The notes beneath the pieces are model-generated. The model was not told where the DNA came from and searched no databases. It was given only the letters and a program-made list of their open reading frames with translations. This document shows positions 37,496 through 59,345 of a stretch of 64,000 nt of DNA, one piece after another. The stretch comes from Hyperoodon ampullatus (lineage: Eukaryota > Chordata > Mammalia > Artiodactyla > Ziphiidae), in contig OX457062.1 of the NCBI GenBank assembly GCA_949752795.1, forward strand, positions 91,501,777-91,565,776, written 5' to 3'. Every line of letters starts with the position of its first letter. Positions within the stretch are counted from its first letter, which is position 1. Position numbers and translations under genes: made by a program.

Positions 37496-38190
37496 TGTTG
37501 CAGGAAGGGGGACCCCTTCCAGGGCCTGAGAGTGGGCTGTTGTCTAACACTAGGAAATGAATTGTCTGAGGAGACACACGTGCTGACAAAGCAAGAGACT
37601 TTATGGGGAAGGGGCCCTGGGGGGAAAGCAGCAGGGTAAGGGAACCCAGGAGAACAGCTCTACCACGTGGCTCACCGTCTCAGGTTTTAGTTTCCGGGTT
37701 GTCTCTGGCCAAGCATTCTGATTCAGGGTCCTTCCTGGTGACATGTGCATCGCTCAGCCAAGATGGATTCCAGCGAGAAGGATTCTGGGAGGATGGCAGG
37801 ACACATGGACTGGAACCTCCTCTCTCCTTTTTTTTTTTTTGCGGTACGCGGGCCTCTCACTGTCGTGGCCTCTCCCGTTGCGGAGCACAGGCACTGGACG
37901 CGCAGGCCCAGCGGCCATGGCTCACGGGCCCAGCCGCTCCGTGACACGTGGGATCCTCCCGGACCGGGACACAAACCCGTGTCCCCTTCATCGGCAGGCG
38001 AACTCTCAACGACTGCGCCACCAGGGAAGCCCTCCTCTCTCCTTTTGACCTTTCCTGAATTCTTCCGATTGGTGGTAGCTTGTCAGTTCCGAGTTCCTTA
38101 CCAGGACCTCCTGTTGTAAGATAACTCATGCCAGTGGTTACTGTCGTGCCTGGTGAGGAAGGGCACTTTTGGTCGGTGGTTCCCCTAACA
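37496..38190 (-). mobile_element. Solo LTR of an ERV1-like retrovirus, antisense (copy 2), source of the array's left edge
   Basis: The segment starts TGTTGCAGGAAGGGGGACCC and ends GGTTCCCCTAACA. A perfect 4-bp duplication GTAG lies on both sides (37492-37495 and 38191-38194), as expected for a gammaretrovirus-like LTR. It carries an antisense AATAAA (in GACTTTATGGGG, partly mutated) and is split by the SINE at 37,828. Its last 60 bases (38,131-38,190) are part of every unit of the downstream macrosatellite. No viral genes are present. Confidence 0.88.
37828..38030 (-). mobile_element. CHR-type SINE (short cetacean form) inside the LTR
   Basis: Poly-T and GCGGTACGCGGGCCTCTCAC lead to a head ending CCACCAGGGAAGC. 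The 12-bp duplication CCTCCTCTCTCC (37816-37827 and 38031-38042) is perfect. The insertion is nested in the LTR but lies left of the array breakpoint, so it was not amplified. Confidence 0.95.
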
Positions 38191-38443
38191 GTAGGACCTT
38201 GGGCCGACTCCTTTATTCCCAGACCTCAGGTTGCTCATTGGGAAAATCATGGTGTGGGTTAGATTCAAATCCATCCAACACATATTTATTGAGCACCTAC
38301 AGTGTGTGAGACCCAGCCTGAATGCTCTGGGCATGCAGTGGTGAACAGAACTTGATCTCAAGGAGCTTAGAGGCTAACGGGAGAACCACACATCCAGGAA
38401 GCCACATAAAACAAAGGGCACGAGATCACACCTTTGCTACAAC

Positions 38444-38791
38444 ATGGCAGAGGTAACTGAGAAACCACAGGAGCCTAACTCGGATTCAGAGATACGCACC
38501 AGAAGTTCCCAGCAACAAACACGAAGCGTCAAAGGCAAGAGGAAGAGGAAGGCCCCTTTTCAACTCCAGGACTATGAAAGCGAGAAGATACGGAAGATAG
38601 TCATGAAGGTAAAATCAATTCTTTGGCAGAGCATGGGAAAATGTAAGAAAGGGAAGAAGTCAATGATACTAGTCTTCTACCACCAGCAGAATAAAAGAAA
38701 GAATGAAAATCAGCCAAAGGAGGATGAAGAAGTCCTGGAAAGTTCTTCTAGCAGTTCATCAGGTACTGCCTTGTGTCTACCAGGTAACTGA
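38444..38791 (+). CDS. Array protein, unit 1: 115-residue basic Ser-tailed protein, family unknown
   Basis: An intact single-exon frame begins MAEVTEKPQEPNSDSEI. Residues 1-28 are acidic and polar. Residues 30-36 (KGKRKRK) look like a nuclear localisation signal. Residues 44-72 are rich in Lys/Arg with a single Cys at 67, followed by a hydrophobic patch MILVFYH (74-80) and a basic run KRK (84-86). An acidic stretch and a run of about seven Ser (100-106) follow. There is no signal peptide or membrane segment. The KKGKKSMILVFYHQQNKRK core faintly recalls SPANX/SPANX-N sperm nuclear proteins, but this is a weak guess. Unit 1 is the most divergent copy: R18, R27, I59 and M64 are found together only here. 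Leader and AATAAA are present. Expression is unknown. Confidence 0.6.
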   Translation: MAEVTEKPQEPNSDSEIRTRSSQQQTRSVKGKRKRKAPFQLQDYESEKIRKIVMKVKSILWQSMGKCKKGKKSMILVFYHQQNKRKNENQPKEDEEVLESSSSSSSGTALCLPGN

Positions 38792-38886
38792 GACCTTGCT
38801 GTCTCTGTTGTCTCTCCAGAAAAAGCACTGGAGAAATGGTCATTTGTGTAGAGATCAAACACAAATGGTCACCTGTGTAGAGACCA

Positions 38887-38892
38887 AATAAA
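38887..38892 (+). promoter_or_regulatory. Polyadenylation signal AATAAA of the retrocopy (unit 1)
   Basis: The hexamer sits 96 bases after the stop codon of the 115-codon frame and about 50 bases before the A-rich tail. The same hexamer occurs at the same offset in all 17 units, so each copy could be polyadenylated if transcribed. Confidence 0.75.
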
Positions 38893-39639
38893 GCACTCAG
38901 GTGTTGATGATTAAAATACCAACAAGCTGTAAAAATAAAAAACAAAAAACAAAGGGCACGTGCAGCACAGCACGGTTGTCAGTGTGAGCTTCGCAGTGAG
39001 ACAGATCTGGGTGGAGCCCAGCACTGCCACATGGCACTAGCTGTGTATCGGGCAAGTTGCTAACCCCCTCTTTACATTTCCTCAGTAATTTTGGATAATA
39101 ACCCTTTCTTTATAGAGTGGCTGCTCAGTGCAGAGCCACACCATTGGAAGTGCTCCCTACATGGCGGCCAAGCCCACTGCAGTGTCAAGTTCTAGACAGA
39201 AGTAATGGAAACCTTCTTGAGAATGTCAGTTAGACCCCACGAGGGGCTTGTCTTTTGGTGCTGAGGCCCCTTCTTATGCTCAGCAGATTTCTCTAGTCTC
39301 CTTTCTTGGCCATGGAGCTTGGGAATCCAGTGGTTACTGTCGTGCCTGGCCAGGAAGGGCACTTTTGGTCAGTGGTTCCCCTAACAGTAGGACCTTGGGC
39401 CGACTCCTTTATTCCCAGACCTCAGGTTGCTCATTGGGAAAATCATGGTGTGGGTTAGATTCAAATCCATCCAACACATATTTATTGAGCACCTGCAGTG
39501 TGTGAGACCCAGGCTGAATGCTCTGGGCATGCAGTGGTGAATAGAACTTGATCTCAAGGAGCTTAGAGGCTAACGGGAGAACCAGACATCCAGCAAGCCA
39601 CATAAAACAAAGGGCACGAGATCACACCTTTGCTACAAC

Positions 39640-39987
39640 ATGGCAGAGGTAACTGAGAAACCACAGGAGCCTAACTCGGATTCAGAGATACACACCAGAA
39701 GTTCCCAGCAACAAACACCAAGCGTCAAAGGCAAGAGGAAGAGGAAGGCCCCCTTTCAACTCCAGGACTATGAAAGCGAGAAGATACGGAAGATAGTCAT
39801 GAAGGTAAAATCAACTCTTTGGCAGAGTGTGGGAAAATGTAAGAAAGGGAAGAAGTCAATGATACTAGTCTTCTACCACCAGCAGAATAAAAGAAAGAAT
39901 GAAAATCAGCCAAAGGAGGATGAAGAAGTCCTGGAAAGTTCTTCTAGCAGTTCATCAAGTACTGCCTTGTGTCTACCAGGTAACTGA
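39640..39987 (+). CDS. Array protein, unit 2 (type A)
   Basis: An intact 115-residue copy. Type A is defined by H18, P27, M54, K92, D94 and S107 (eight consecutive Ser), plus the silent choices CCC at Pro38 and AGT at Ser63. The surrounding unit has a private base change that gives GAATAGAACTTG upstream at 39,539. It sits next to the divergent edge unit and outside the regular A-C-B block. Confidence 0.6.
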   Translation: MAEVTEKPQEPNSDSEIHTRSSQQQTPSVKGKRKRKAPFQLQDYESEKIRKIVMKVKSTLWQSVGKCKKGKKSMILVFYHQQNKRKNENQPKEDEEVLESSSSSSSSTALCLPGN

Positions 39988-40835
39988 GACCTTGCTGTCT
40001 CTGTTGTCTCTCCAGAAAAAGCACTGGAGAAATGGTCATTTGTGTAGAGATCAAACACAAATGGTCACCTGTGTAGAGACCAAATAAAGCACTCAGGTGT
40101 TGATGATTAAAATACCAACAAGCTGTAAAAATAAAAAACAAAAAACAAAGGGCACGTGCAGCACAGCACGGTTGTCAGTGTGAGCTTCGCAGTGAGACAG
40201 ATCTGGGTGGAGCCCAGCACTGCCACATGGCACTAGCTGTGTATCGGGCAAGTTGCTAACCCCCTCTTTACATTTCCTCAGTAATCTTGGATAATAACGC
40301 TTTCTTTATAGAGTGGCTGCTCAGTGCAGAGCCACACCATTGGAAGTGCTCCCTACATGGCGGCCAAGCCCACTGCAGTGTCAAGTTCTAGACAGAAGCA
40401 ATGGAAACCTTCTTGAGAATGTCAGTTAGACCCCACGAGGGGCTTGTCTTTTGGTGCTGAGGCCCCTTCTTATGCTCAGCAGATTTCTCTAGTCTCCTTT
40501 CTTGGCCATGGAGCTTGGGAATCCAGTGGTTACTGTCGTGCCTGGCCAGGAAGGGCACTTTTGGTCAGTGGTTCCCCTAACAGTAGGACCTTGGGCCGAC
40601 TCCTTTATTCCCAGACCTCAGGTTGCTCATTGGGAAAATCATGGTGTGGGTTAGATTCAAATCCATCCAACACATATTTATTGAGCACCTGCAGTGTGTG
40701 AGACCCAGGCTGAATGCTCTGGGCATGCAGTGGTGAACAGAACTTGATCTCAAGGAGCTTAGAGGCTAACGGGAGAACCACACATCCAGGAAGCCACATA
40801 AAACAAAGGGCACGAGATCACACCTTTGCTACAAC

Positions 40836-41183: not shown

Positions 41184-42031
41184 GACCTTGCTGTCTCTGT
41201 TGTCTCTCCAGAAAAAGCACTGGAGAAATGGTCATTTGTGTAGAGATCAAACACAAATGGTCACCTGTGTAGAGACCAAATAAAGCACTCAGGTGTTGAT
41301 GATTAAAATACCAACAAGCTGTAAAAATAAAAAACAAAAAACAAAGGGCACGTGCAGCACAGCACGGTTGTCAGTGTGAGCTTCGCAGTGAGACAGATCT
41401 GGGTGGAGCCCAGCACTGCCACATGGCACTAGCTGTGTATCGGGCAAGTTGCTAACCCCCTCTTTACATTTCCTCAGTAATTTTGGATAATAACCCTTTC
41501 TTTATAGAGTGGCTGCTCAGTGCAGAGCCACACCATTGGACGTGCTCCCTACATGGCGGCCAAGCCCACTGCAGTGTCAAGTTCTAGACAGAAGCAATGG
41601 AAACCTTCTTGAGAATGTCAGTTAGACCCCACGAGGGGCTTGTCTTTTGGTGCTGAGGCCCCTTCTTATGCTCAGCAGATTTCTCTAGTCTCCTTTCTTG
41701 GCCATGGAGCTTGGGAATCCAGTGGTTACTGTCGTGCCTGGCCAGGAAGGGCACTTTTGGTCAGTGGTTCCCCTAACAGTAGGACCTTGGGCCGACTCCT
41801 TTATTCCCAGACCTCAGGTTGCTCATTGGGAAAATCATGGTGTGGGTTAGATTCAAATCCATCCAACACATATTTATTGAGCACCTGCAGTGTGTGAGAC
41901 CCAGGCTGAATGCTCTGGGCATGCAGTGGTGAACAGAACTTGATCTCAAGGAGCTTAGAGGCTAACGGGAGAACCAGACATCCAGCAAGCCACATAAAAC
42001 AAAGGGCACGAGATCACACCTTTGCTACAAC

Positions 42032-42379
42032 ATGGCAGAGGTAACTGAGAAACCACAGGAGCCTAACTCGGATTCAGAGATACACACCAGAAGTTCCCAG
42101 CAACAAACACCAAGCGTCAAAGGCAAGAGGAAGAGGAAGGCCCCCTTTCAACTCCAGGACTATGAAAGCGAGAAGATACGGAAGATAGTCATGAAGGTAA
42201 AATCAACTCTTTGGCAGAGTGTGGGAAAATGTAAGAAAGGGAAGAAGTCAATGATACTAGTCTTCTACCACCAGCAGAATAAAAGAAAGAATGAAAATCA
42301 GCCAAAGGAGGATGAAGAAGTCCTGGAAAGTTCTTCTAGCAGTTCATCAAGTACTGCCTTGTGTCTACCAGGTAACTGA
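42032..42379 (+). CDS. Array protein, unit 4 (type A)
   Basis: An intact copy whose predicted protein is identical to that of unit 2. It opens the first regular A-C-B trimer. Just beyond the frame, a private C-to-T change turns the A-rich tail into AAAAAATAAAAAAC near 42,525. Confidence 0.6.
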   Translation: MAEVTEKPQEPNSDSEIHTRSSQQQTPSVKGKRKRKAPFQLQDYESEKIRKIVMKVKSTLWQSVGKCKKGKKSMILVFYHQQNKRKNENQPKEDEEVLESSSSSSSSTALCLPGN

Positions 42380-43227
42380 GACCTTGCTGTCTCTGTTGTC
42401 TCTCCAGAAAAAGCACTGGAGAAATGGTCATTTGTGTAGAGATCAAACACAAATGGTCACCTGTGTAGAGACCAAATAAAGCACTCAGGTGTTGATGATT
42501 AAAATACCAACAAGCTGTAAAAATAAAAAATAAAAAACAAAGGGCACGTGCAGCACAGCATGGTTGTCAGTGTGAGCTTCGCAGTGAGACAGATCTGGGT
42601 GGAGCCCAGCACTGCCACATGGCACTAGCTGTGTATCGGGCAAGTTGCTAACCCCCTCTTTACATTTCCTCAGTAATTTTGGATAATAACCCTTTCTTTA
42701 TAGAGTGGCTGCTCAGTGCAGAGCCACACCATTGGAAGTGCTCCCTACATGGCGGCCAAGCCCACTGCAGTGTCAAGTTCTAGACAGAAGTAATGGAAAC
42801 CTTCTTGAGAATGTCAGTTAGACCCCACGAGGGGCTTGTCTTTTGGTGCTGAGGCCCCTTCTTATGCTCAGCAGATTTCTCTAGTCTCCTTTCTTGGCCA
42901 TGGAGCTTGGGAATCCAGTGGTTACTGTCGTGCCTGGCCAGGAAGGGCACTTTTGGTCAGTGGTTCCCCTAACAGTAGGACCTTGGGCCGACTCCTTTAT
43001 TCCCAGACCTCAGGTTGCTCACTGGGAAAATCATGGTGTGGGTTAGATTCAAATCCATCCAACACATATTTATTGAGCACCTGCAGTGTGTGAGACCCAG
43101 GCTGAATGCTCTGGGCATGCAGTGGTGAACAGAACTTGATCTCAAGGAGCTTAGAGGCTAACGGGAGAACCAGACATCCAGGAAGCCACATAAAACAAAG
43201 GGCACGAGATCACACCTTTGCTACAAC

Positions 43228-43575
43228 ATGGCAGAGGTAACTGAGAAACCACAGGAGCCTAACTCGGATTCAGAGATACACACCAGAAGTTCCCAGCAAC
43301 AAACACCAAGCGTCAAAGGCAAGAGGAAGAGGAAGGCCCCTTTTCAACTCCAGGACTATGAAAGCGAGAAGATACGGAAGATAGTCATGAAGGTAAAATC
43401 AACTCTTTGGCAGAGCGTGGGAAAATGTAAGAAAGGGAAGAAGTCAATGATACTAGTCTTCTACCACCAGCAGAATAAAAGAAAGAATGAAAATCAGCCA
43501 GAGGAGGATGAAGAAGTCCTGGAAAGCACTTCTAGCAGTTCATCAGGTACTGCCTTGTGTCTACCAGGTAACTGA
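43228..43575 (+). CDS. Array protein, unit 5 (type C)
   Basis: An intact copy of type C: P27, M54, E92, D94, T101 and G107. The Ser tail is broken by Thr101, caused by AGTTCT changing to AGCACT. Downstream, the acceptor-like sequence reads TCTCTGCAG instead of TCTCTCCAG. Confidence 0.6.
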   Translation: MAEVTEKPQEPNSDSEIHTRSSQQQTPSVKGKRKRKAPFQLQDYESEKIRKIVMKVKSTLWQSVGKCKKGKKSMILVFYHQQNKRKNENQPEEDEEVLESTSSSSSGTALCLPGN

Positions 43576-44423
43576 GACCTTGCTGTCTCTGTTGTCTCTG
43601 CAGAAAAAGCACTGGAGAAATGGTCATTTGTGTAGAGATCAAACACAAATGGTCACCTGTGTAGAGACCAAATAAAGCACTCAGGTGTTGATGATTAAAA
43701 TACCAACAAGCTGTAAAAATAAAAAACAAAAAACAAAGGGCACGTGCAGCACAGCACGGTTGTCAGTGTGAGCTTCGCAGTGAGACAGATCTGGGTGGAG
43801 CCCAGCACTGCCACATGGCACTAGCTGTGTATCGGGCAAGTTGCTAACCCCCTCTTTACATTTCCTCAGTAATTTTGGATAATAACGCTTTGTTTATAGA
43901 GTGGCTGCTCAGTGCAGAGCCACACCATTGGAAGTGCTCCCTACATGGCGGCCAAGCCCACTGCAGTGTCAAGTTCTAGACAGAAGCAATGGAAACCTTC
44001 TTGAGAATGTCAGTTAGACCCCACGAGGGGCTTGTCTTTTGGTGCTGAGGCCCCTTCTTATGCTCAGCAGATTTCTCTAGTCTCCTTTCTTGGCCATGGA
44101 GCTTGGGAATCCAGTGGTTACTGTCGTGCCTGGCCAGGAAGGGCACTTTTGGTCAGTGGTTCCCCTAACAGTAGGACCTTGGGCCGACTCCTTTATTCCC
44201 AGACCTCAGGTTGCTCATTGGGAAAATCATGGTGTGGGTTAGATTCAAATCCATCCAACACATATTTATTGAGCACCTGCAGTGTGTGAGACCCAGGCTG
44301 AATGCTCTGGGCATGCAGTGGTGAACAGAACTTGATCTCAAGGAGCTTAGAGGCTAACGGGAGAACCACACATCCAGGAAGCCACATAAAACAAAGGGCA
44401 CGAGATCACACCTTTGCTACAAC

Positions 44424-44771
44424 ATGGCAGAGGTAACTGAGAAACCACAGGAGCCTAACTCGGATTCAGAGATACACACCAGAAGTTCCCAGCAACAAAC
44501 ACGAAGCGTCAAAGGCAAGAGGAAGAGGAAGGCCCCTTTTCAACTCCAGGACTATGAAAGCGAGAAGATACGGAAGATAGTCCTGAAAGTAAAATCAACT
44601 CTTTGGCAGAGCGTGGGAAAATGTAAGAAAGGGAAGAAGTCAATGATACTAGTCTTCTACCACCAGCAGAATAAAAGAAAGAATGAAAATCAGCCAGAGG
44701 AGCATGAAGAAGTCCTGGAAAGTTCTTCTAGCAGTTCATCAGGTACTGCCTTGTGTCTACCAGGTAACTGA
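44424..44771 (+). CDS. Array protein, unit 6 (type B)
   Basis: An intact copy of type B: R27, L54, E92, H94 and G107. It has a private silent change at Lys55 (AAA in place of AAG), which removes the GTAAAA donor-like context seen as AAGGTAAAA in other copies. Confidence 0.6.
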   Translation: MAEVTEKPQEPNSDSEIHTRSSQQQTRSVKGKRKRKAPFQLQDYESEKIRKIVLKVKSTLWQSVGKCKKGKKSMILVFYHQQNKRKNENQPEEHEEVLESSSSSSSGTALCLPGN

Positions 44772-45619
44772 GACCTTGCTGTCTCTGTTGTCTCTCCAGA
44801 AAAAGCACTGGAGAAATGGTCATTTGTGTAGAGATCAAACACAAATGGTCACCTGTGTAGAGACCAAATAAAGCACTCAGGTGTTAATGATTAAAATACC
44901 AACAAGCTGTAAAAATAAAAAACAAAAAACAAAGGGCACGTGCAGCACAGCACGGTTGTCAGTGTGAGCTTCGCAGTGAGACAGATCTGGGTGGAGCCCA
45001 GCACTGCCACATGGCACTAGCTGTGTATCGGGCAAGTTGCTAACCCCCTCTTTACATTTCCTCAGTAATTTTGGATAATAACCCTTTCTTTATAGAGTGG
45101 CTGCTCAGTGCAGAGCCACACCATTGGACGTGCTCCCTACATGGCGGCCAAGCCCACTGCAGTGTCAAGTTCTAGACAGAAGCAATGGAAACCTTCTTGA
45201 TAATGTCAGTTAGACCCCACGAGGGGCTTGTCTTTTGGTGCTGAGGCCCCTTCTTATGCTCAGCAGATTTCTCTAGTCTCCTTTCTTGGCCATGGAGCTT
45301 GGGAATCCAGTGGTTACTGTCGTGCCTGGCCAGGAAGGGCACTTTTGGTCAGTGGCTCCCCTAACAGTAGGACCTTGGGCCGACTCCTTTATTCCCAGAC
45401 CTCAGGTTGCTCATTGGGAAAATCATGGTGTGGGTTAGATTCAAATCCATCCAACACATATTTATTGAGCACCTGCAGTGTGTGAGACCCAGGCTGAATG
45501 CTCTGGGCATGCAGTGGTGAACAGAACTTGATCTCAAGGAGCTTAGAGGCTAACGGGAGAACCAGACATCCAGGAAGCCACATAAAACAAAGGGCACGAG
45601 ATCACACCTTTGCTACAAC

Positions 45620-45967
45620 ATGGCAGAGGTAACTGAGAAACCACAGGAGCCTAACTCGGATTCAGAGATACACACCAGAAGTTCCCAGCAACAAACACCA
45701 AGCGTCAAAGGCAAGAGGAAGAGGAAGGCCCCCTTTCAACTCCAGGACTATGAAAGCGAGAAGATACGGAAGATAGTCATGAAGGTAAAATCAACTCTTT
45801 GGCAGAGTGTGGGAAAATGTAAGAAAGGGAAGAAGTCAATGATACTAGTCTTCTACCACCAGCAGAATAAAAGAAAGAATGAAAATCAGCCAAAGGAGGA
45901 TGAAGAAGTCCTGGAAAGTTCTTCTAGCAGTTCATCAAGTACTGCCTTGTGTCTACCAGGTAACTGA
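45620..45967 (+). CDS. Array protein, unit 7 (type A)
   Basis: An intact copy with the type A protein (K92, D94, S107). Its upstream 300 bases differ from other A units at the GGAAGCC/GCAAGCC site, so the unit may be mosaic, although the coding part is standard. Confidence 0.6.
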   Translation: MAEVTEKPQEPNSDSEIHTRSSQQQTPSVKGKRKRKAPFQLQDYESEKIRKIVMKVKSTLWQSVGKCKKGKKSMILVFYHQQNKRKNENQPKEDEEVLESSSSSSSSTALCLPGN

Positions 45968-46815
45968 GACCTTGCTGTCTCTGTTGTCTCTCCAGAAAAA
46001 GCACTGGAGAAATGGTCATTTGTGTAGAGATCAAACACAAATGGTCACCTGTGTAGAGACCAAATAAAGCACTCAGGTGTTGATGATTAAAATACCAACA
46101 AGCTGTAAAAATAAAAAACAAAAAACAAAGGGCACGTGCAGCACAGCATGGTTGTCAGTGTGAGCTTCGCAGTGAGACAGATCTGGGTGGAGCCCAGCAC
46201 TGCCACATGGCACTAGCTGTGTATCGGGCAAGTTGCTAACCCCCTCTTTACATTTCCTCAGTAATTTTGGATAATAACCCTTTCTTTATAGAGTGGCTGC
46301 TCAGTGCAGAGCCACACCATTGGAAGTGCTCCCTACATGGCGGCCAAGCCCACTGCAGTGTCAAGTTCTAGACAGAAGTAATGGAAACCTTCTTGAGAAT
46401 GTCAGTTAGACCCCACGAGGGGCTTGTCTTTTGGTGCTGAGGCCCCTTCTTATGCTCAGCAGATTTCTCTAGTCTCCTTTCTTGGCCATGGAGCTTGGGA
46501 ATCCAGTGGTTACTGTCGTGCCTGGCCAGGAAGGGCACTTTTGGTCAGTGGTTCCCCTAACAGTAGGACCTTGGGCCGACTCCTTTATTCCCAGACCTCA
46601 GGTTGCTCACTGGGAAAATCATGGTGTGGGTTAGATTCAAATCCATCCAACACATATTTATTGAGCACCTGCAGTGTGTGAGACCCAGGCTGAATGCTCT
46701 GGGCATGCAGTGGTGAACAGAACTTGATCTCAAGGAGCTTAGAGGCTAACGGGAGAACCAGACATCCAGGAAGCCACATAAAACAAAGGGCACGAGATCA
46801 CACCTTTGCTACAAC

Positions 46816-47163
46816 ATGGCAGAGGTAACTGAGAAACCACAGGAGCCTAACTCGGATTCAGAGATACACACCAGAAGTTCCCAGCAACAAACACCAAGCG
46901 TCAAAGGCAAGAGGAAGAGGAAGGCCCCTTTTCAACTCCAGGACTATGAAAGCGAGAAGATACGGAAGATAGTCATGAAGGTAAAATCAACTCTTTGGCA
47001 GAGCGTGGGAAAATGTAAGAAAGGGAAGAAGTCAATGATACTAGTCTTCTACCACCAGCAGAATAAAAGAAAGAATGAAAATCAGCCAGAGGAGGATGAA
47101 GAAGTCCTGGAAAGCACTTCTAGCAGTTCATCAGGTACTGCCTTGTGTCTACCAGGTAACTGA
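46816..47163 (+). CDS. Array protein, unit 8 (type C)
   Basis: An intact copy whose predicted protein is identical to that of unit 5 (T101, G107, E92). It is embedded between an A unit and a B unit, as in every other trimer. Confidence 0.6.
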   Translation: MAEVTEKPQEPNSDSEIHTRSSQQQTPSVKGKRKRKAPFQLQDYESEKIRKIVMKVKSTLWQSVGKCKKGKKSMILVFYHQQNKRKNENQPEEDEEVLESTSSSSSGTALCLPGN

Positions 47164-48011
47164 GACCTTGCTGTCTCTGTTGTCTCTGCAGAAAAAGCAC
47201 TGGAGAAATGGTCATTTGTGTAGAGATCAAACACAAATGGTCACCTGTGTAGAGACCAAATAAAGCACTCAGGTGTTGATGATTAAAATACCAACAAGCT
47301 GTAAAAATAAAAAACAAAAAACAAAGGGCACGTGCAGCACAGCACGGTTGTCAGTGTGAGCTTCGCAGTGAGACAGATCTGGGTGGAGCCCAGCACTGCC
47401 ACATGGCACTAGCTGTGTATCGGGCAAGTTGCTAACCCCCTCTTTACATTTCCTCAGTAATTTTGGATAATAACGCTTTGTTTATAGAGTGGCTGCTCAG
47501 TGCAGAGCCACACCATTGGAAGTGCTCCCTACATGGCGGCCAAGCCCACTGCAGTGTCAAGTTCTAGACAGAAGCAATGGAAACCTTCTTGAGAATGTCA
47601 GTTAGACCCCACGAGGGGCTTGTCTTTTGGTGCTGAGGCCCCTTCTTATGCTCAGCAGATTTCTCTAGTCTCCTTTCTTGGCCATGGAGCTTGGGAATCC
47701 AGTGGTTACTGTCGTGCCTGGCCAGGAAGGGCACTTTTGGTCAGTGGTTCCCCTAACAGTAGGACCTTGGGCCGACTCCTTTATTCCCAGACCTCAGGTT
47801 GCTCATTGGGAAAATCATGGTGTGGGTTAGATTCAAATCCATCCAACACATATTTATTGAGCACCTGCAGTGTGTGAGACCCAGGCTGAATGCTCTGGGC
47901 ATGCAGTGGTGAACAGAACTTGATCTCAAGGAGCTTAGAGGCTAACGGGAGAACCACACATCCAGGAAGCCACATAAAACAAAGGGCACGAGATCACACC
48001 TTTGCTACAAC

Positions 48012-48359
48012 ATGGCAGAGGTAACTGAGAAACCACAGGAGCCTAACTCGGATTCAGAGATACACACCAGAAGTTCCCAGCAACAAACACGAAGCGTCAA
48101 AGGCAAGAGGAAGAGGAAGGCCCCTTTTCAACTCCAGGACTATGAAAGCGAGAAGATACGGAAGATAGTCCTGAAGGTAAAATCAACTCTTTGGCAGAGC
48201 GTGGGAAAATGTAAGAAAGGGAAGAAGTCAATGATACTAGTCTTCTACCACCAGCAGAATAAAAGAAAGAATGAAAATCAGCCAGAGGAGCATGAAGAAG
48301 TCCTGGAAAGTTCTTCTAGCAGTTCATCAGGTACTGCCTTGTGTCTACCAGGTAACTGA
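48012..48359 (+). CDS. Array protein, unit 9 (type B)
   Basis: An intact copy with the type B protein (R27, L54, H94, G107). Unlike unit 6 it keeps AAG at Lys55. Its 3' flank has the B-specific GTTAATGATT. Confidence 0.6.
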   Translation: MAEVTEKPQEPNSDSEIHTRSSQQQTRSVKGKRKRKAPFQLQDYESEKIRKIVLKVKSTLWQSVGKCKKGKKSMILVFYHQQNKRKNENQPEEHEEVLESSSSSSSGTALCLPGN

Positions 48360-49207
48360 GACCTTGCTGTCTCTGTTGTCTCTCCAGAAAAAGCACTGGA
48401 GAAATGGTCATTTGTGTAGAGATCAAACACAAATGGTCACCTGTGTAGAGACCAAATAAAGCACTCAGGTGTTAATGATTAAAATACCAACAAGCTGTAA
48501 AAATAAAAAACAAAAAACAAAGGGCACGTGCAGCACAGCACGGTTGTCAGTGTGAGCTTCGCAGTGAGACAGATCTGGGTGGAGCCCAGCACTGCCACAT
48601 GGCACTAGCTGTGTATCGGGCAAGTTGCTAACCCCCTCTTTACATTTCCTCAGTAATTTTGGATAATAACCCTTTCTTTATAGAGTGGCTGCTCAGTGCA
48701 GAGCCACACCATTGGACGTGCTCCCTACATGGCGGCCAAGCCCACTGCAGTGTCAAGTTCTAGACAGAAGCAATGGAAACCTTCTTGATAATGTCAGTTA
48801 GACCCCACGAGGGGCTTGTCTTTTGGTGCTGAGGCCCCTTCTTATGCTCAGCAGATTTCTCTAGTCTCCTTTCTTGGCCATGGAGCTTGGGAATCCAGTG
48901 GTTACTGTCGTGCCTGGCCAGGAAGGGCACTTTTGGTCAGTGGTTCCCCTAACAGTAGGACCTTGGGCCGACTCCTTTATTCCCAGACCTCAGGTTGCTC
49001 ATTGGGAAAATCATGGTGTGGGTTAGATTCAAATCCATCCAACACATATTTATTGAGCACCTGCAGTGTGTGAGACCCAGGCTGAATGCTCTGGGCATGC
49101 AGTGGTGAACAGAACTTGATCTCAAGGAGCTTAGAGGCTAACGGGAGAACCAGACATCCAGCAAGCCACATAAAACAAAGGGCACGAGATCACACCTTTG
49201 CTACAAC

Positions 49208-49555
49208 ATGGCAGAGGTAACTGAGAAACCACAGGAGCCTAACTCGGATTCAGAGATACACACCAGAAGTTCCCAGCAACAAACACCAAGCGTCAAAGGC
49301 AAGAGGAAGAGGAAGGCCCCCTTTCAACTCCAGGACTATGAAAGCGAGAAGATACGGAAGATAGTCATGAAGGTAAAATCAACTCTTTGGCAGAGTGTGG
49401 GAAAATGTAAGAAAGGGAAGAAGTCAATGATACTAGTCTTCTACCACCAGCAGAATAAAAGAAAGAATGAAAATCAGCCAAAGGAGGATGAAGAAGTCCT
49501 GGAAAGTTCTTCTAGCAGTTCATCAAGTACTGCCTTGTGTCTACCAGGTAACTGA
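49208..49555 (+). CDS. Array protein, unit 10 (type A)
   Basis: An intact copy with the standard type A protein. The left end has the usual A marker CATCCAGCAAGCC, and the 3' flank has CATGGTTGTC. Confidence 0.6.
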   Translation: MAEVTEKPQEPNSDSEIHTRSSQQQTPSVKGKRKRKAPFQLQDYESEKIRKIVMKVKSTLWQSVGKCKKGKKSMILVFYHQQNKRKNENQPKEDEEVLESSSSSSSSTALCLPGN

Positions 49556-50403
49556 GACCTTGCTGTCTCTGTTGTCTCTCCAGAAAAAGCACTGGAGAAA
49601 TGGTCATTTGTGTAGAGATCAAACACAAATGGTCACCTGTGTAGAGACCAAATAAAGCACTCAGGTGTTGATGATTAAAATACCAACAAGCTGTAAAAAT
49701 AAAAAACAAAAAACAAAGGGCACGTGCAGCACAGCATGGTTGTCAGTGTGAGCTTCGCAGTGAGACAGATCTGGGTGGAGCCCAGCACTGCCACATGGCA
49801 CTAGCTGTGTATCGGGCAAGTTGCTAACCCCCTCTTTACATTTCCTCAGTAATTTTGGATAATAACCCTTTCTTTATAGAGTGGCTGCTCAGTGCAGAGC
49901 CACACCATTGGAAGTGCTCCCTACATGGCGGCCAAGCCCACTGCAGTGTCAAGTTCTAGACAGAAGTAATGGAAACCTTCTTGAGAATGTCAGTTAGACC
50001 CCACGAGGGGCTTGTCTTTTGGTGCTGAGGCCCCTTCTTATGCTCAGCAGATTTCTCTAGTCTCCTTTCTTGGCCATGGAGCTTGGGAATCCAGTGGTTA
50101 CTGTCGTGCCTGGCCAGGAAGGGCACTTTTGGTCAGTGGTTCCCCTAACAGTAGGACCTTGGGCCGACTCCTTTATTCCCAGACCTCAGGTTGCTCACTG
50201 GGAAAATCATGGTGTGGGTTAGATTCAAATCCATCCAACACATATTTATTGAGCACCTGCAGTGTGTGAGACCCAGGCTGAATGCTCTGGGCATGCAGTG
50301 GTGAACAGAACTTGATCTCAAGGAGCTTAGAGGCTAACGGGAGAACCAGACATCCAGGAAGCCACATAAAACAAAGGGCACGAGATCACACCTTTGCTAC
50401 AAC

Positions 50404-50751
50404 ATGGCAGAGGTAACTGAGAAACCACAGGAGCCTAACTCGGATTCAGAGATACACACCAGAAGTTCCCAGCAACAAACACCAAGCGTCAAAGGCAAGA
50501 GGAAGAGGAAGGCCCCTTTTCAACTCCAGGACTATGAAAGCGAGAAGATACGGAAGATAGTCATGAAGGTAAAATCAACTCTTTGGCAGAGCGTGGGAAA
50601 ATGTAAGAAAGGGAAGAAGTCAATGATACTAGTCTTCTACCACCAGCAGAATAAAAGAAAGAATGAAAATCAGCCAGAGGAGGATGAAGAAGTCCTGGAA
50701 AGCACTTCTAGCAGTTCATCAGGTACTGCCTTGTGTCTACCAGGTAACTGA
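50404..50751 (+). CDS. Array protein, unit 11 (type C)
   Basis: An intact copy with the standard type C protein. The flank carries the C markers CTCACTGGGAA upstream, and TAACGCTTTGTTTATAG downstream. Confidence 0.6.
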   Translation: MAEVTEKPQEPNSDSEIHTRSSQQQTPSVKGKRKRKAPFQLQDYESEKIRKIVMKVKSTLWQSVGKCKKGKKSMILVFYHQQNKRKNENQPEEDEEVLESTSSSSSGTALCLPGN

Positions 50752-51599
50752 GACCTTGCTGTCTCTGTTGTCTCTGCAGAAAAAGCACTGGAGAAATGGT
50801 CATTTGTGTAGAGATCAAACACAAATGGTCACCTGTGTAGAGACCAAATAAAGCACTCAGGTGTTGATGATTAAAATACCAACAAGCTGTAAAAATAAAA
50901 AACAAAAAACAAAGGGCACGTGCAGCACAGCACGGTTGTCAGTGTGAGCTTCGCAGTGAGACAGATCTGGGTGGAGCCCAGCACTGCCACATGGCACTAG
51001 CTGTGTATCGGGCAAGTTGCTAACCCCCTCTTTACATTTCCTCAGTAATTTTGGATAATAACGCTTTGTTTATAGAGTGGCTGCTCAGTGCAGAGCCACA
51101 CCATTGGAAGTGCTCCCTACATGGCGGCCAAGCCCACTGCAGTGTCAAGTTCTAGACAGAAGCAATGGAAACCTTCTTGAGAATGTCAGTTAGACCCCAC
51201 GAGGGGCTTGTCTTTTGGTGCTGAGGCCCCTTCTTATGCTCAGCAGATTTCTCTAGTCTCCTTTCTTGGCCATGGAGCTTGGGAATCCAGTGGTTACTGT
51301 CGTGCCTGGCCAGGAAGGGCACTTTTGGTCAGTGGTTCCCCTAACAGTAGGACCTTGGGCCGACTCCTTTATTCCCAGACCTCAGGTTGCTCATTGGGAA
51401 AATCATGGTGTGGGTTAGATTCAAATCCATCCAACACATATTTATTGAGCACCTGCAGTGTGTGAGACCCAGGCTGAATGCTCTGGGCATGCAGTGGTGA
51501 ACAGAACTTGATCTCAAGGAGCTTAGAGGCTAACGGGAGAACCACACATCCAGGAAGCCACATAAAACAAAGGGCACGAGATCACACCTTTGCTACAAC

Positions 51600-51947
51600 A
51601 TGGCAGAGGTAACTGAGAAACCACAGGAGCCTAACTCGGATTCAGAGATACACACCAGAAGTTCCCAGCAACAAACACGAAGCGTCAAAGGCAAGAGGAA
51701 GAGGAAGGCCCCTTTTCAACTCCAGGACTATGAAAGCGAGAAGATACGGAAGATAGTCCTGAAGGTAAAATCAACTCTTTGGCAGAGCGTGGGAAAATGT
51801 AAGAAAGGGAAGAAGTCAATGATACTAGTCTTCTACCACCAGCAGAATAAAAGAAAGAATGAAAATCAGCCAGAGGAGCATGAAGAAGTCCTGGAAAGTT
51901 CTTCTAGCAGTTCATCAGGTACTGCCTTGTGTCTACCAGGTAACTGA
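51600..51947 (+). CDS. Array protein, unit 12 (type B)
   Basis: An intact copy with the standard type B protein, followed by the B marker CTTGATAATGTC at about 52,373. Confidence 0.6.
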   Translation: MAEVTEKPQEPNSDSEIHTRSSQQQTRSVKGKRKRKAPFQLQDYESEKIRKIVLKVKSTLWQSVGKCKKGKKSMILVFYHQQNKRKNENQPEEHEEVLESSSSSSSGTALCLPGN

Positions 51948-52795
51948 GACCTTGCTGTCTCTGTTGTCTCTCCAGAAAAAGCACTGGAGAAATGGTCATT
52001 TGTGTAGAGATCAAACACAAATGGTCACCTGTGTAGAGACCAAATAAAGCACTCAGGTGTTAATGATTAAAATACCAACAAGCTGTAAAAATAAAAAACA
52101 AAAAACAAAGGGCACGTGCAGCACAGCACGGTTGTCAGTGTGAGCTTCGCAGTGAGACAGATCTGGGTGGAGCCCAGCACTGCCACATGGCACTAGCTGT
52201 GTATCGGGCAAGTTGCTAACCCCCTCTTTACATTTCCTCAGTAATTTTGGATAATAACCCTTTCTTTATAGAGTGGCTGCTCAGTGCAGAGCCACACCAT
52301 TGGACGTGCTCCCTACATGGCGGCCAAGCCCACTGCAGTGTCAAGTTCTAGACAGAAGCAATGGAAACCTTCTTGATAATGTCAGTTAGACCCCACGAGG
52401 GGCTTGTCTTTTGGTGCTGAGGCCCCTTCTTATGCTCAGCAGATTTCTCTAGTCTCCTTTCTTGGCCATGGAGCTTGGGAATCCAGTGGTTACTGTCGTG
52501 CCTGGCCAGGAAGGGCACTTTTGGTCAGTGGTTCCCCTAACAGTAGGACCTTGGGCCGACTCCTTTATTCCCAGACCTCAGGTTGCTCATTGGGAAAATC
52601 ATGGTGTGGGTTAGATTCAAATCCATCCAACACATATTTATTGAGCACCTGCAGTGTGTGAGACCCAGGCTGAATGCTCTGGGCATGCAGTGGTGAACAG
52701 AACTTGATCTCAAGGAGCTTAGAGGCTAACGGGAGAACCAGACATCCAGCAAGCCACATAAAACAAAGGGCACGAGATCACACCTTTGCTACAAC

Positions 52796-53143
52796 ATGGC
52801 AGAGGTAACTGAGAAACCACAGGAGCCTAACTCGGATTCAGAGATACACACCAGAAGTTCCCAGCAACAAACACCAAGCGTCAAAGGCAAGAGGAAGAGG
52901 AAGGCCCCCTTTCAACTCCAGGACTATGAAAGCGAGAAGATACGGAAGATAGTCATGAAGGTAAAATCAACTCTTTGGCAGAGTGTGGGAAAATGTAAGA
53001 AAGGGAAGAAGTCAATGATACTAGTCTTCTACCACCAGCAGAATAAAAGAAAGAATGAAAATCAGCCAAAGGAGGATGAAGAAGTCCTGGAAAGTTCTTC
53101 TAGCAGTTCATCAAGTACTGCCTTGTGTCTACCAGGTAACTGA
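52796..53143 (+). CDS. Array protein, unit 13 (type A)
   Basis: An intact copy with the standard type A protein. The only difference noticed from earlier A units is the downstream C in GAAGCAATGG near 53,552. Confidence 0.6.
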   Translation: MAEVTEKPQEPNSDSEIHTRSSQQQTPSVKGKRKRKAPFQLQDYESEKIRKIVMKVKSTLWQSVGKCKKGKKSMILVFYHQQNKRKNENQPKEDEEVLESSSSSSSSTALCLPGN

Positions 53144-53991
53144 GACCTTGCTGTCTCTGTTGTCTCTCCAGAAAAAGCACTGGAGAAATGGTCATTTGTG
53201 TAGAGATCAAACACAAATGGTCACCTGTGTAGAGACCAAATAAAGCACTCAGGTGTTGATGATTAAAATACCAACAAGCTGTAAAAATAAAAAACAAAAA
53301 ACAAAGGGCACGTGCAGCACAGCATGGTTGTCAGTGTGAGCTTCGCAGTGAGACAGATCTGGGTGGAGCCCAGCACTGCCACATGGCACTAGCTGTGTAT
53401 CGGGCAAGTTGCTAACCCCCTCTTTACATTTCCTCAGTAATTTTGGATAATAACCCTTTCTTTATAGAGTGGCTGCTCAGTGCAGAGCCACACCATTGGA
53501 AGTGCTCCCTACATGGCGGCCAAGCCCACTGCAGTGTCAAGTTCTAGACAGAAGCAATGGAAACCTTCTTGAGAATGTCAGTTAGACCCCACGAGGGGCT
53601 TGTCTTTTGGTGCTGAGGCCCCTTCTTATGCTCAGCAGATTTCTCTAGTCTCCTTTCTTGGCCATGGAGCTTGGGAATCCAGTGGTTACTGTCGTGCCTG
53701 GCCAGGAAGGGCACTTTTGGTCAGTGGTTCCCCTAACAGTAGGACCTTGGGCCGACTCCTTTATTCCCAGACCTCAGGTTGCTCACTGGGAAAATCATGG
53801 TGTGGGTTAGATTCAAATCCATCCAACACATATTTATTGAGCACCTGCAGTGTGTGAGACCCAGGCTGAATGCTCTGGGCATGCAGTGGTGAACAGAACT
53901 TGATCTCAAGGAGCTTAGAGGCTAACGGGAGAACCAGACATCCAGGAAGCCACATAAAACAAAGGGCACGAGATCACACCTTTGCTACAAC

Positions 53992-54339
53992 ATGGCAGAG
54001 GTAACTGAGAAACCACAGGAGCCTAACTCGGATTCAGAGATACACACCAGAAGTTCCCAGCAACAAACACCAAGCGTCAAAGGCAAGAGGAAGAGGAAGG
54101 CCCCTTTTCAACTCCAGGACTATGAAAGCGAGAAGATACGGAAGATAGTCATGAAGGTAAAATCAACTCTTTGGCAGAGCGTGGGAAAATGTAAGAAAGG
54201 GAAGAAGTCAATGATACTAGTCTTCTACCACCAGCAGAATAAAAGAAAGAATGAAAATCAGCCAGAGGAGGATGAAGAAGTCCTGGAAAGCACTTCTAGC
54301 AGTTCATCAGGTACTGCCTTGTGTCTACCAGGTAACTGA
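53992..54339 (+). CDS. Array protein, unit 14 (type C)
   Basis: An intact copy with the standard type C protein. No private change was seen in the reading frame. Confidence 0.6.
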   Translation: MAEVTEKPQEPNSDSEIHTRSSQQQTPSVKGKRKRKAPFQLQDYESEKIRKIVMKVKSTLWQSVGKCKKGKKSMILVFYHQQNKRKNENQPEEDEEVLESTSSSSSGTALCLPGN

Positions 54340-55187
54340 GACCTTGCTGTCTCTGTTGTCTCTGCAGAAAAAGCACTGGAGAAATGGTCATTTGTGTAGA
54401 GATCAAACACAAATGGTCACCTGTGTAGAGACCAAATAAAGCACTCAGGTGTTGATGATTAAAATACCAACAAGCTGTAAAAATAAAAAACAAAAAACAA
54501 AGGGCACGTGCAGCACAGCACGGTTGTCAGTGTGAGCTTCGCAGTGAGACAGATCTGGGTGGAGCCCAGCACTGCCACATGGCACTAGCTGTGTATCGGG
54601 CAAGTTGCTAACCCCCTCTTTACATTTCCTCAGTAATTTTGGATAATAACGCTTTGTTTATAGAGTGGCTGCTCAGTGCAGAGCCACACCATTGGAAGTG
54701 CTCCCTACATGGCGGCCAAGCCCACTGCAGTGTCAAGTTCTAGACAGAAGCAATGGAAACCTTCTTGAGAATGTCAGTTAGACCCCACGAGGGGCTTGTC
54801 TTTTGGTGCTGAGGCCCCTTCTTATGCTCAGCAGATTTCTCTAGTCTCCTTTCTTGGCCATGGAGCTTGGGAATCCAGTGGTTACTGTCGTGCCTGGCCA
54901 GGAAGGGCACTTTTGGTCAGTGGTTCCCCTAACAGTAGGACCTTGGGCCGACTCCTTTATTCCCAGACCTCAGGTTGCTCATTGGGAAAATCATGGTGTG
55001 GGTTAGATTCAAATCCATCCAACACATATTTATTGAGCACCTGCAGTGTGTGAGACCCAGGCTGAATGCTCTGGGCATGCAGTGGTGAACAGAACTTGAT
55101 CTCAAGGAGCTTAGAGGCTAACGGGAGAACCACACATCCAGGAAGCCACATAAAACAAAGGGCACGAGATCACACCTTTGCTACAAC

Positions 55188-55535
55188 ATGGCAGAGGTAA
55201 CTGAGAAACCACAGGAGCCTAACTCGGATTCAGAGATACACACCAGAAGTTCCCAGCAACAAACACGAAGCGTCAAAGGCAAGAGGAAGAGGAAGGCCCC
55301 TTTTCAACTCCAGGACTATGAAAGCGAGAAGATACGGAAGATAGTCCTGAAGGTAAAATCAACTCTTTGGCAGAGCGTGGGAAAATGTAAGAAAGGGAAG
55401 AAGTCAATGATACTAGTCTTCTACCACCAGCAGAATAAAAGAAAGAATGAAAATCAGCCAGAGGAGCATGAAGAAGTCCTGGAAAGTTCTTCTAGCAGTT
55501 CATCAGGTACTGCCTTGTGTCTACCAGGTAACTGA
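55188..55535 (+). CDS. Array protein, unit 15 (type B)
   Basis: An intact copy with the standard type B protein. The 3' flank has an A-like CATGG at about 55,717 while keeping the other B markers. Confidence 0.6.
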   Translation: MAEVTEKPQEPNSDSEIHTRSSQQQTRSVKGKRKRKAPFQLQDYESEKIRKIVLKVKSTLWQSVGKCKKGKKSMILVFYHQQNKRKNENQPEEHEEVLESSSSSSSGTALCLPGN

Positions 55536-56383
55536 GACCTTGCTGTCTCTGTTGTCTCTCCAGAAAAAGCACTGGAGAAATGGTCATTTGTGTAGAGATC
55601 AAACACAAATGGTCACCTGTGTAGAGACCAAATAAAGCACTCAGGTGTTAATGATTAAAATACCAACAAGCTGTAAAAATAAAAAACAAAAAACAAAGGG
55701 CACGTGCAGCACAGCATGGTTGTCAGTGTGAGCTTCGCAGTGAGACAGATCTGGGTGGAGCCCAGCACTGCCACATGGCACTAGCTGTGTATCGGGCAAG
55801 TTGCTAACCCCCTCTTTACATTTCCTCAGTAATTTTGGATAATAACCCTTTCTTTATAGAGTGGCTGCTCAGTGCAGAGCCACACCATTGGACGTGCTCC
55901 CTACATGGCGGCCAAGCCCACTGCAGTGTCAAGTTCTAGACAGAAGCAATGGAAACCTTCTTGATAATGTCAGTTAGACCCCACGAGGGGCTTGTCTTTT
56001 GGTGCTGAGGCCCCTTCTTATGCTCAGCAGATTTCTCTAGTCTCCTTTCTTGGCCATGGAGCTTGGGAATCCAGTGGTTACTGTCGTGCCTGGCCAGGAA
56101 GGGCACTTTTGGTCAGTGGTTCCCCTAACAGTAGGACCTTGGGCCGACTCCTTTATTCCCAGACCTCAGGTTGCTCATTGGGAAAATCATGGTGTGGGTT
56201 AGATTCAAATCCATCCAACACATATTTATTGAGCACCTGCAGTGTGTGAGACCCAGGCTGAATGCTCTGGGCATGCAGTGGTGAACAGAACTTGATCTCA
56301 AGGAGCTTAGAGGCTAACGGGAGAACCAGACATCCAGCAAGCCACATAAAACAAAGGGCACGAGATCACACCTTTGCTACAAC

Positions 56384-56731
56384 ATGGCAGAGGTAACTGA
56401 GAAACCACAGGAGCCTAACTCGGATTCAGAGATACACACCAGAAGTTCCCAGCAACAAACACCAAGCGTCAAAGGCAAGAGGAAGAGGAAGGCCCCCTTT
56501 CAACTCCAGGACTATGAAAGCGAGAAGATACGGAAGATAGTCATGAAGGTAAAATCAACTCTTTGGCAGAGTGTGGGAAAATGTAAGAAAGGGAAGAAGT
56601 CAATGATACTAGTCTTCTACCACCAGCAGAATAAAAGAAAGAATGAAAATCAGCCAAAGGAGGATGAAGAAGTCCTGGAAAGTTCTTCTAGCAGTTCATC
56701 AAGTACTGCCTTGTGTCTACCAGGTAACTGA
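56384..56731 (+). CDS. Array protein, unit 16 (type A)
   Basis: An intact copy with the standard type A protein. It begins a fifth trimer that is not completed. Confidence 0.6.
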   Translation: MAEVTEKPQEPNSDSEIHTRSSQQQTPSVKGKRKRKAPFQLQDYESEKIRKIVMKVKSTLWQSVGKCKKGKKSMILVFYHQQNKRKNENQPKEDEEVLESSSSSSSSTALCLPGN

Positions 56732-57579
56732 GACCTTGCTGTCTCTGTTGTCTCTCCAGAAAAAGCACTGGAGAAATGGTCATTTGTGTAGAGATCAAAC
56801 ACAAATGGTCACCTGTGTAGAGACCAAATAAAGCACTCAGGTGTTGATGATTAAAATACCAACAAGCTGTAAAAATAAAAAACAAAAAACAAAGGGCACG
56901 TGCAGCACAGCATGGTTGTCAGTGTGAGCTTCGCAGTGAGACAGATCTGGGTGGAGCCCAGCACTGCCACATGGCACTAGCTGTGTATCGGGCAAGTTGC
57001 TAACCCCCTCTTTACATTTCCTCAGTAATTTTGGATAATAACCCTTTCTTTATAGAGTGGCTGCTCAGTGCAGAGCCACACCATTGGAAGTGCTCCCTAC
57101 ATGGCGGCCAAGCCCACTGCAGTGTCAAGTTCTAGACAGAAGCAATGGAAACCTTCTTGAGAATGTCAGTTAGACCCCACGAGGGGCTTGTCTTTTGGTG
57201 CTGAGGCCCCTTCTTATGCTCAGCAGATTTCTCTAGTCTCCTTTCTTGGCCATGGAGCTTGGGAATCCAGTGGTTACTGTCGTGCCTGGCCAGGAAGGGC
57301 ACTTTTGGTCAGTGGTTCCCCTAACAGTAGGACCTTGGGCCGACTCCTTTATTCCCAGACCTCAGGTTGCTCACTGGGAAAATCATGGTGTGGGTTAGAT
57401 TCAAATCCATCCAACACATATTTATTGAGCACCTGCAGTGTGTGAGACCCAGGCTGAATGCTCTGGGCATGCAGTGGTGAACAGAACTTGATCTCAAGGA
57501 GCTTAGAGGCTAACGGGAGAACCAGACATCCAGGAAGCCACATAAAACAAAGGGCACGAGATCACACCTTTGCTACAAC

Positions 57580-57927
57580 ATGGCAGAGGTAACTGAGAAA
57601 CCACAGGAGCCTAACTCGGATTCAGAGATACACACCAGAAGTTCCCAGCAACAAACACCAAGTGTCAAAGGCAAGAGGAAGAGGAAGGCCCCTTTTCAAC
57701 TCCAGGACTATGAAAGCGAGAAGATACGGAAGATAGTCATGAAGGTAAAATCAACTCTTTGGCAGAGCGTGGGAAAATGTAAGAAAAGGAAGAAGTCAAT
57801 GATACTAGTCTTCTACCACCAGCAGAATAAAAGAAAGAATGAAAATCAGCCAGAGGAGGATGAAGAAGTCCTGGAAAGTTCTTCTAGCAGTTCATCAAGT
57901 ACTGCCTTGTGTCTACCAGGTAACTGA
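57580..57927 (+). CDS. Array protein, unit 17 (edge unit, C-like start, distinct end)
   Basis: An intact copy at the right edge. Upstream it carries the C marker CTCACTGGGAA. The protein has E92 and D94 like type C but S101 and S107 like type A, plus a private G70R (KCKKRKKS) and a silent AGT at Ser28. The unit's right end diverges (AAACAGAAATAACGG, AGAGCCCAAGAGG) because it continues into the flanking DNA. Confidence 0.6.
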   Translation: MAEVTEKPQEPNSDSEIHTRSSQQQTPSVKGKRKRKAPFQLQDYESEKIRKIVMKVKSTLWQSVGKCKKRKKSMILVFYHQQNKRKNENQPEEDEEVLESSSSSSSSTALCLPGN

Positions 57928-58339
57928 GACCTTGCTGTCTCTGTTGTCTCTCCAGAAAAAGCACTGGAGAAATGGTCATTTGTGTAGAGATCAAACACAA
58001 ATGGTCACCTGTGTAGAGACCAAATAAAGCACTCAGGTGTTGATGATTAAAATACCAACAAGCTGTAAAAATAAAAAACAAAAAACAAAGGGCACGTGCA
58101 GCACAGCACGGTTGTCAGTGTGAGCTTCGCAGTGAGACAGATCTGGGTGGAGCCCAGCACTGCCACATGGCACTAGCTGTGTATCGGGCAAGTTGCTAAC
58201 CCCCTCTTTACATTTCCTCAGTAATTTTGGATAATAACCCTTTCTTTATAGAGTGGCTGCTCAGTGCAGAGCCACACCATTGGAAGTGCTCCCTACATGG
58301 CGGCCAAGCCCACTGCAGTGTCAAGTTCTAAACAGAAAT

Positions 58340-58650
58340 AACGGAAACCTTCTTGAGAATGTCAGTTAGAGCCCAAGAGGGGCTTGTCTTTTGGTGCTGA
58401 GGCCCCTTCTTATGCTCAGCAGATTTCTCTAGTCTCCTTTCTTGGCCATGGAGCTTGGGAGTCCACCCGCTGCTTCTCTTGGGGTCTACCTCCGTAACGG
58501 AAACCTTCTTGAGAATGTCAGTTAGACCCCACGAGGGGCTTGTCTTTTGGTGCTCTGGCCCCTTCTTATGCTCAGCAGATTTCTCTAGTCTCCTTGCTTG
58601 GCCATGGAGCTTGGGAATCCACCCGCTGCTTCTCTTGCGGTCTACCTCCG
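58340..58650. repeat. 155-bp tandem duplication at the right edge of the array
   Basis: TAACGGAAACCTTCTTGAGA starts at about 58,340 and again at about 58,494. Each copy ends near CCACCCGCTGCTTCTCTTG, followed by GGTCTACCTCCG. The first copy contains the right breakpoint of the macrosatellite at CCA (58,463-58,465), and its left 120 bases are in every unit. On the minus strand both copies stay open as one 111-codon frame with two similar halves of about 51 residues. That is expected when a duplicated segment is a multiple of three or nearly so, and it is not evidence of a gene. Confidence 0.85.
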
Positions 58651-59340: not shown

Positions 59341-59345
59341 CCTCG

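Follow-up and report, generated by a model that had tools for sequence, protein, structure and literature searches.

How does one small open reading frame (ORF) come to stand open in every unit of a long tandem array, and does the array supply its product? The question is raised by a 64,000-nucleotide stretch of the genome of Hyperoodon ampullatus (Ziphiidae; assembly GCA_949752795.1, contig OX457062.1, forward-strand positions 91,501,777 to 91,565,776), referred to below as the window, which contains 17 tandem units of 1,196 bp. We found that each unit holds a full-length processed retrocopy. The reading that we favor, with moderate confidence, is that a spliced, A-tailed retrocopy whose relatives are mostly X-linked was multiplied into an array supplying many doses of a SPANX-related sperm-cell protein, both expression and dose being predicted.

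A preliminary description of the window, made from its letters alone, had reported 17 units at exact steps of 1,196 bp without a net indel, and both lag identity and gapless alignment of the units agree with it. Unit n starts at 38131 + 1196(n-1), and the array totals 17 x 1196 = 20,332 bp. Its features are as follows.

38131..58462, plus strand: tandem array of 17 units of 1,196 bp, delimited by lag identity and ungapped unit alignment
38131..39326, plus strand: unit 1, the left edge unit, from the difference matrix
41719..56070, plus strand: units 4 to 15, four copies of a 3-unit higher-order repeat (3,588 bp)
57267..58462, plus strand: unit 17, the right edge unit, from the difference matrix
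58463..58465, plus strand: CCA, a 3-bp identity of unit start and right flank, read from the sequence
58339..58650, plus strand: two copies of a 156-bp repeat, the first overlapping the end of unit 17 and the second in the flank

Self-identity at lag 1196 was 0.98 to 0.996 in 500-base bins wholly within the array and only 0.21 to 0.30 in bins outside it. The units aligned without a gap, each pair differing at 0 to 21 of 1,196 positions; of the 42 columns that vary, 16 fall in the ORF. The start given previously, 38131, was retained, and the end was moved from 58465 to 58462, the additional CCA being common to the unit start and the right flank. With large units in an uninterrupted tandem array at a single locus, the array is a macrosatellite, which supports the previous description of a macrosatellite with one frame per unit; all 17 units indeed have an open 115-codon frame that begins with ATG at 38444 + n x 1196 (n counted here from zero).

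The array also has a higher-order structure of period 3, with identity of 99.66% at lag 3588 versus 98.87% at lag 1196. The higher-order copies in units 4 to 15 differ by 2 to 4 of 3,588 bases, and units 5, 8, 11, and 14 are identical across 1,196 bp. Units 1 and 17, at the edges, each show 14 to 21 differences per 1,196 bp with any other unit, compared with 0 to 16 for internal pairs. A 3-unit repeat with diverged edges is the pattern expected of unequal exchange, in which the edges are left behind. Could an assembler instead have multiplied one or a few real units? The four identical units would fit such an artifact; however, the unit types differ, the edges are the most diverged, the higher-order copies are 2 to 4 bases apart, and the flanks are unlike the unit except for a 123-base duplicated end at the right and short weak matches. 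The pattern is hard to obtain through assembly error, and we consider this explanation very improbable.

There were no indels among the 17 units, inside or outside the frame, despite the 42 variable columns; indels in the array are fewer than would be expected under neutral change. The 156-bp tandem pair is 95% alike, the unit end being duplicated once more in the right flank, and is perhaps a trace of the founding rearrangement. The unit is low in CpG (observed/expected, 0.23), and its body has what we take to be an L2/MIR look; the short interspersed elements likewise seem cetacean in type. No second family copy was found outside the array when 64 family proteins were compared with the 64-kb window by tblastn (1,210 high-scoring segment pairs, 44 of them outside the array, with a best expectation value [E] of 0.007 among the 40 outside matches listed).

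The genome search yielded at least 47 matches to the unit, namely, the 17 units of the array and 30 matches at 17 intron-bearing loci elsewhere, all of which were fetched. Alignment of unit 1 with these relatives gave the following anatomy.

38408..38422, plus strand: 5' copy of the 15-bp target-site duplication AAAACAAAGGGCACG (unit positions 278-292)
38423..38945, plus strand: retrocopy, comprising a 21-nt 5' untranslated region, the ORF, a 3' untranslated region, and an A-rich tail (unit positions 293-815)
38444..38791, plus strand: 115-codon ORF of unit 1, in the same frame in all units, the last at 57580-57927
38587..38588, plus strand: position of the missing intron, GAGAAG^ATACGG, from alignment with the relatives
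38792..38851, plus strand: former C-terminal coding part DLAVSVVSPEKALEKWSFV, then a stop, homologous to the end of the pig protein
38887..38892, plus strand: AATAAA polyadenylation signal of the retrocopy (unit position 757)
38946..38960, plus strand: 3' copy of the target-site duplication (unit positions 816-830)

The relatives carry a GT..AG intron of 167 to 169 bp at codon 48/49 in 17 of 17 loci, and in the alignment this intron is exactly absent from the unit. The direct repeat AAAACAAAGGGCACG is perfect over its 15 bp in all 17 units. The whole unit resembles the 17 relatives only within unit positions 293 to 779; its similarity to the intron-bearing locus on the chromosome labeled C9 covers 293 to 457 and 523 to 778, within the direct repeat. 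The 5' end of the retrocopy lies 29 nt downstream of the relatives' TATA box TATATATA at the three loci measured. Exact intron loss, the target-site duplication, the AATAAA signal, the A-rich tail, and a 5' end below the TATA box together identify a processed retrocopy. What had been called an intact small gene is therefore an open frame, as claimed, within an intronless retrocopy that has a TGA 19 codons before the stop of the pig protein: codon 116 of the array is TGA, and the 19 further in-frame codons of DLAVSVVSPEKALEKWSFV match the end of the pig homologue. The TGA is also present in the relatives, which stop earlier still, after 103 codons.

At least 16 of the intron-bearing loci are on C21 and at least 1 is on C9, and the array is on C7. 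One match to Xist exon 1 was found, on C21 (55 of 434,101 first-look candidates scored), and C21 was therefore taken as the X chromosome. The 103-codon spliced frame is kept at 15 of the 16 C21 loci and at the C9 locus, while L013, on C21, has a stop at codon 71. Two adjacent C21 intervals are 99.94% identical over 18 kb, and three neighboring copies lie ~20.8 kb apart; copies in such near-identical intervals indicate that the X family itself multiplied in tandem. At C21:121.955-122.000 Mb (L010 to L012 and L034 to L037), the X relatives stand in tandem units of ~20.8 kb. The C9 locus, L009 (C9:63112700-63117300), shares the intron and the TATA-box upstream region with the X copies, its 103-codon frame is open, and its identity to those copies is 95 to 96%. 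It seems to represent a separate departure from the X, at the DNA level, in addition to the retrocopy.

X linkage seems to be a property of the family beyond this genome. The sequence that carries pig homologue P0003 is 125,939,595 bases long; those carrying P0024 and P0031, both from cow, measure 139,009,144 and 148,823,899 bases, respectively. In published tables, 125939595 is given for pig X and 148823899 for cow X (PMC6707380, PMC5571935), and one source uses 139009144 as the end coordinate of a masked pseudoautosomal region of cow X (PMC12923665). The pig and cow homologues are X-linked too.

These comparisons bear on whether an RNA step is needed at all. Plain DNA-level duplication of a single-exon gene is a common origin of arrays, and nothing further speaks for it here. 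It is contradicted by the exact loss of the intron, the target-site duplication, the A-rich tail, and the 5' end at the predicted start site, as well as by the restriction of similarity to unit positions 293 to 779. In addition, the 18 kb between two X copies shares nothing with the array unit. We regard duplication at the DNA level alone as scarcely credible.

The protein had been described as one that could not be assigned. That statement is superseded, as named homologues were found in pig, cattle, yak, goat, sheep, stoat, elephant seal, and the primates marmoset, night monkey, and gorilla. Three protein searches returned 9, 64, and 69 proteins at E up to 10, 62 of the 69 being below 1e-3. 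One homologue, P0001, from another public contig, has 115 residues like the array protein and is 95% identical to it. A precomputed label on the protein-search matches, PF27987.1, was absent from our own Pfam scans and could not be confirmed. Solved structures yielded no relevant match (best E, 0.89), and a Pfam scan of the array protein at E up to 10 gave no homeobox match.

A hint of SPANX-type loci in the preliminary description proved better founded than its author had claimed. A mechanical consensus of 15 family rows matched the SPAN-X profile (Pfam PF07458; curated cut-off, 22 bits) at 30.6 bits (E, 5.5e-7), and the consensus without its three array-like rows matched at 22.9 bits (E, 1.3e-4), while none of eight shuffled consensuses matched SPAN-X. 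A hand-made consensus that scored 28.8 bits was dropped in favor of the mechanical consensuses with shuffled controls. Among individual proteins, SPAN-X was matched by four of nine homologues at E < 0.02 (the other five gave no match), by 3 of 10 homologues in another scan, and by three of six spliced or trimmed forms; the best single member reached 20.6 bits, under the cut-off. The profile match starts near residue 23 to 28 (at residue 28 in the array protein), not at the N terminus, whereas the conserved core of SPANX is described as beginning at the N terminus, rat excepted (PMC1831492). Because the core is not N-terminal as in SPANX-N and single proteins fall under the cut-off, we call the family SPANX-related rather than SPANX; by profile comparison, its members are likely distant kin and not SPANX proper. 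The 16 C21 relatives have both of the SPANX-like properties of X linkage and two exons, the array has no intron and is on C7, and the C9 copy has two exons though it is not on C21.

The array protein and its X relatives differ in the amount of change that they have accumulated. With three outgroups used in turn (pig, stoat, and sequence P0010), 5 to 6 changes were unique to the array protein, whereas X copy L020 and the C9 copy had 25 to 31 of their own, about five times as many (P, 2e-5 to 3e-4). In the tree, a long branch (0.71; support, 100/100) leads to the three rows of X and C9 copies, and the fork uniting the X/C9 rows with the array and pig is weak (81/88). The unique-change counts and the long X/C9 branch argue that the array keeps an older, ancestral-like protein and that the X family has changed fast.

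Several results weigh against a functional, SPANX-related product. The slow change of the array protein is no proof of selection since retroposition, which the slow period may predate. Variants within the array are 10 nonsynonymous to 6 synonymous, which fits neutrality (P = 0.21); the ORF is no less variable than the rest of the unit (16 of 348 columns versus 26 of 848; P = 0.23); and in six comparisons of the array with X or C9 copies, Nei-Gojobori dN/dS was 0.88 to 1.11. Since the relatives' TATA box did not travel with the retrocopy, any promoter of the array is putative, and the frame is not kept by every relative, near relative P0002 ending in an unrelated stretch after residue ~84. Single array proteins scored 16.1 and 15.8 bits against SPAN-X (E, 0.018 and 0.023), below the cut-off; another family outscored SPAN-X in P0001; and the whale X and C9 proteins tested gave no SPAN-X match in the Pfam profile scan. 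Lone matches of this size mean little, given that one shuffled consensus of the eight hit an unrelated family at E 0.008. Finally, no close intron-bearing parent was found, and no genome-wide protein search was made for one.

In a rival reading, nothing is made at the locus: a retropseudogene would have lain within the segment that became the array, and slow decay and recent homogenization would have kept its frame open. This reading is favored by the neutral statistics within the array, by the putative status of the promoter, and by a probability of 0.44 for zero stops among 16 neutral changes. In a simulation that rests on assumed indel and transition rates, the probability that an unselected 115-codon frame stayed open fell from 0.35 at 2% divergence to 0.08 at 5%. 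That 17 recently homogenized copies all have an open frame is by itself no evidence of function. On the other hand, the full-length frame is also present in P0001, and the array retains the conserved core of the family, much of which has changed in the whale X and C9 copies tested. We consider a silent macrosatellite plausible, if less likely than not.

For an array that supplies a protein, we propose the following history. The source would be the spliced mRNA of a SPANX-related gene, presumably with an X-linked parent, a copy of which would have inserted on another chromosome by L1-type retroposition, a mode suggested by the target-site duplication and the tail. A founding tandem duplication may have followed at CCA microhomology, which we propose because CCA is common to CCAGTGG, at the left start, and CCACCC, in the right flank. 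Unequal exchange would then have enlarged and homogenized the array, the latest steps probably involving three units at once. By analogy with the DUX4 macrosatellite and X-to-autosome testis retrogenes, we predict that the product is a small and basic protein of sperm-cell nuclei, supplied in many doses. Expression is predicted in germ cells, where function would escape meiotic silencing of the X, and the protein would enter the nucleus by way of its KGKRKRK stretch, which we take to be a nuclear import motif.

A bolder version concerns a copy-number conflict between X and autosome. On this view, the X paralogues multiplied (at least 16 loci) and evolved fast, and the retrocopy off the X froze the ancestral protein and was amplified 17-fold; in spermatids, the dose from the array would then balance that of a selfish X family, with Slx and Sly of mice as the model. 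We consider this extension, drawn by analogy, improbable.

Two other features of the window lie outside the array.

58817-63905: retrocopy of NORAD (LINC00657), 5' truncated and A-tailed, starting 355 bp past the array
21903-21976, minus strand: tRNA-Glu (CTC), Rfam score of 47.2 bits

The NORAD copy contains 17 plus-strand PUMILIO-type TGTANATA sites, and human NORAD is reported to contain 17 UGURUAUA sites (PMC4947167). With its CpG-rich start, 17 TGTANATA sites, and ~650-bp repeats, the right flank was considered as the native NORAD gene, by comparison with human features given in PMC4947167 and PMC6407921; this was ruled out by the 5' truncation, the A-rich tail, and the 68 genome matches. 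At least 68 stretches of the genome match NORAD (40 of 58 candidates scored), and the window copy is without the 5' end common to six of six other fetched copies. No clear target-site duplication surrounds the window copy, the longest shared word being 7 bp. Lacking an A-tail and being CpG-richer upstream, a copy on C14 (L032) has the look of the native gene. We make no case for the array lying at the NORAD locus; its neighbor is a NORAD-like retrocopy. The tRNA was the only match of an Rfam scan at gathering thresholds and is probably part of a tRNA-derived short interspersed element.

Among known systems, the array resembles human D4Z4/DUX4 (4q35), a macrosatellite of 3.3-kb repeats (PMC2588610) with a retrogene in each unit, DUX4 being reported as expressed in testis (PMC3836709). 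In contrast to DUX4, the protein here is unrelated and has no double homeobox, the unit is 1.2 kb and low in CpG, and most relatives are X-linked. In RS447/USP17 (DUB3) and CT47, likewise, the tandem copies are described as precise, and most or all units contain a gene (PMC2588610). Both differ from the array in their genes and unit sizes. We know of no X-to-autosome retroposition step for either. SPANX-N and SPANX-A/D at human Xq27 are described as small SPAN-X proteins of two-exon, X-linked genes recently multiplied on the X, in an account that treats primates, rodents, and dog and includes a dog SPANX-N gene on chromosome 31 as an earlier off-X example (PMC1831492). The array family shares the SPAN-X profile, and its X-linked relatives are two-exon genes multiplied on the X; however, its profile match is firm at the consensus level only, and the array copies are intronless and off the X. 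The testis retrogenes PGK2 and UTP14 are presented as autosomal, intronless counterparts of X-linked genes and as having roles in spermatogenesis (PMC5750009). Their parents are housekeeping genes, whereas the array has undergone tandem amplification and its family includes fast-evolving X members. To our knowledge, the PGK2 and UTP14 retrogenes are not tandem arrays. No report of the array was found among the open-access titles and abstracts listed (in two cases, 15 of more than 5,000), which is not proof of absence, and the main text of a paper on blue whale duplications mentions neither SPANX nor a macrosatellite.

Taken together, the results make the array a gene-bearing macrosatellite of the D4Z4/DUX4 kind, seeded by a retrogene that likely derives from the X. 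It would offer a readable life history of such a macrosatellite, from a likely X-linked SPANX-related gene through mRNA, insertion, and duplication to expansion by threes. The comparisons also extend SPANX-like genes to pig, ruminants, stoat, and this genome, where they have multiplied both on and off the X. If the array is expressed after meiosis, as predicted, it would provide a direct test of whether a gene that departed from the X can be amplified as a satellite and retain the ancestral protein while its relatives on the X race ahead.

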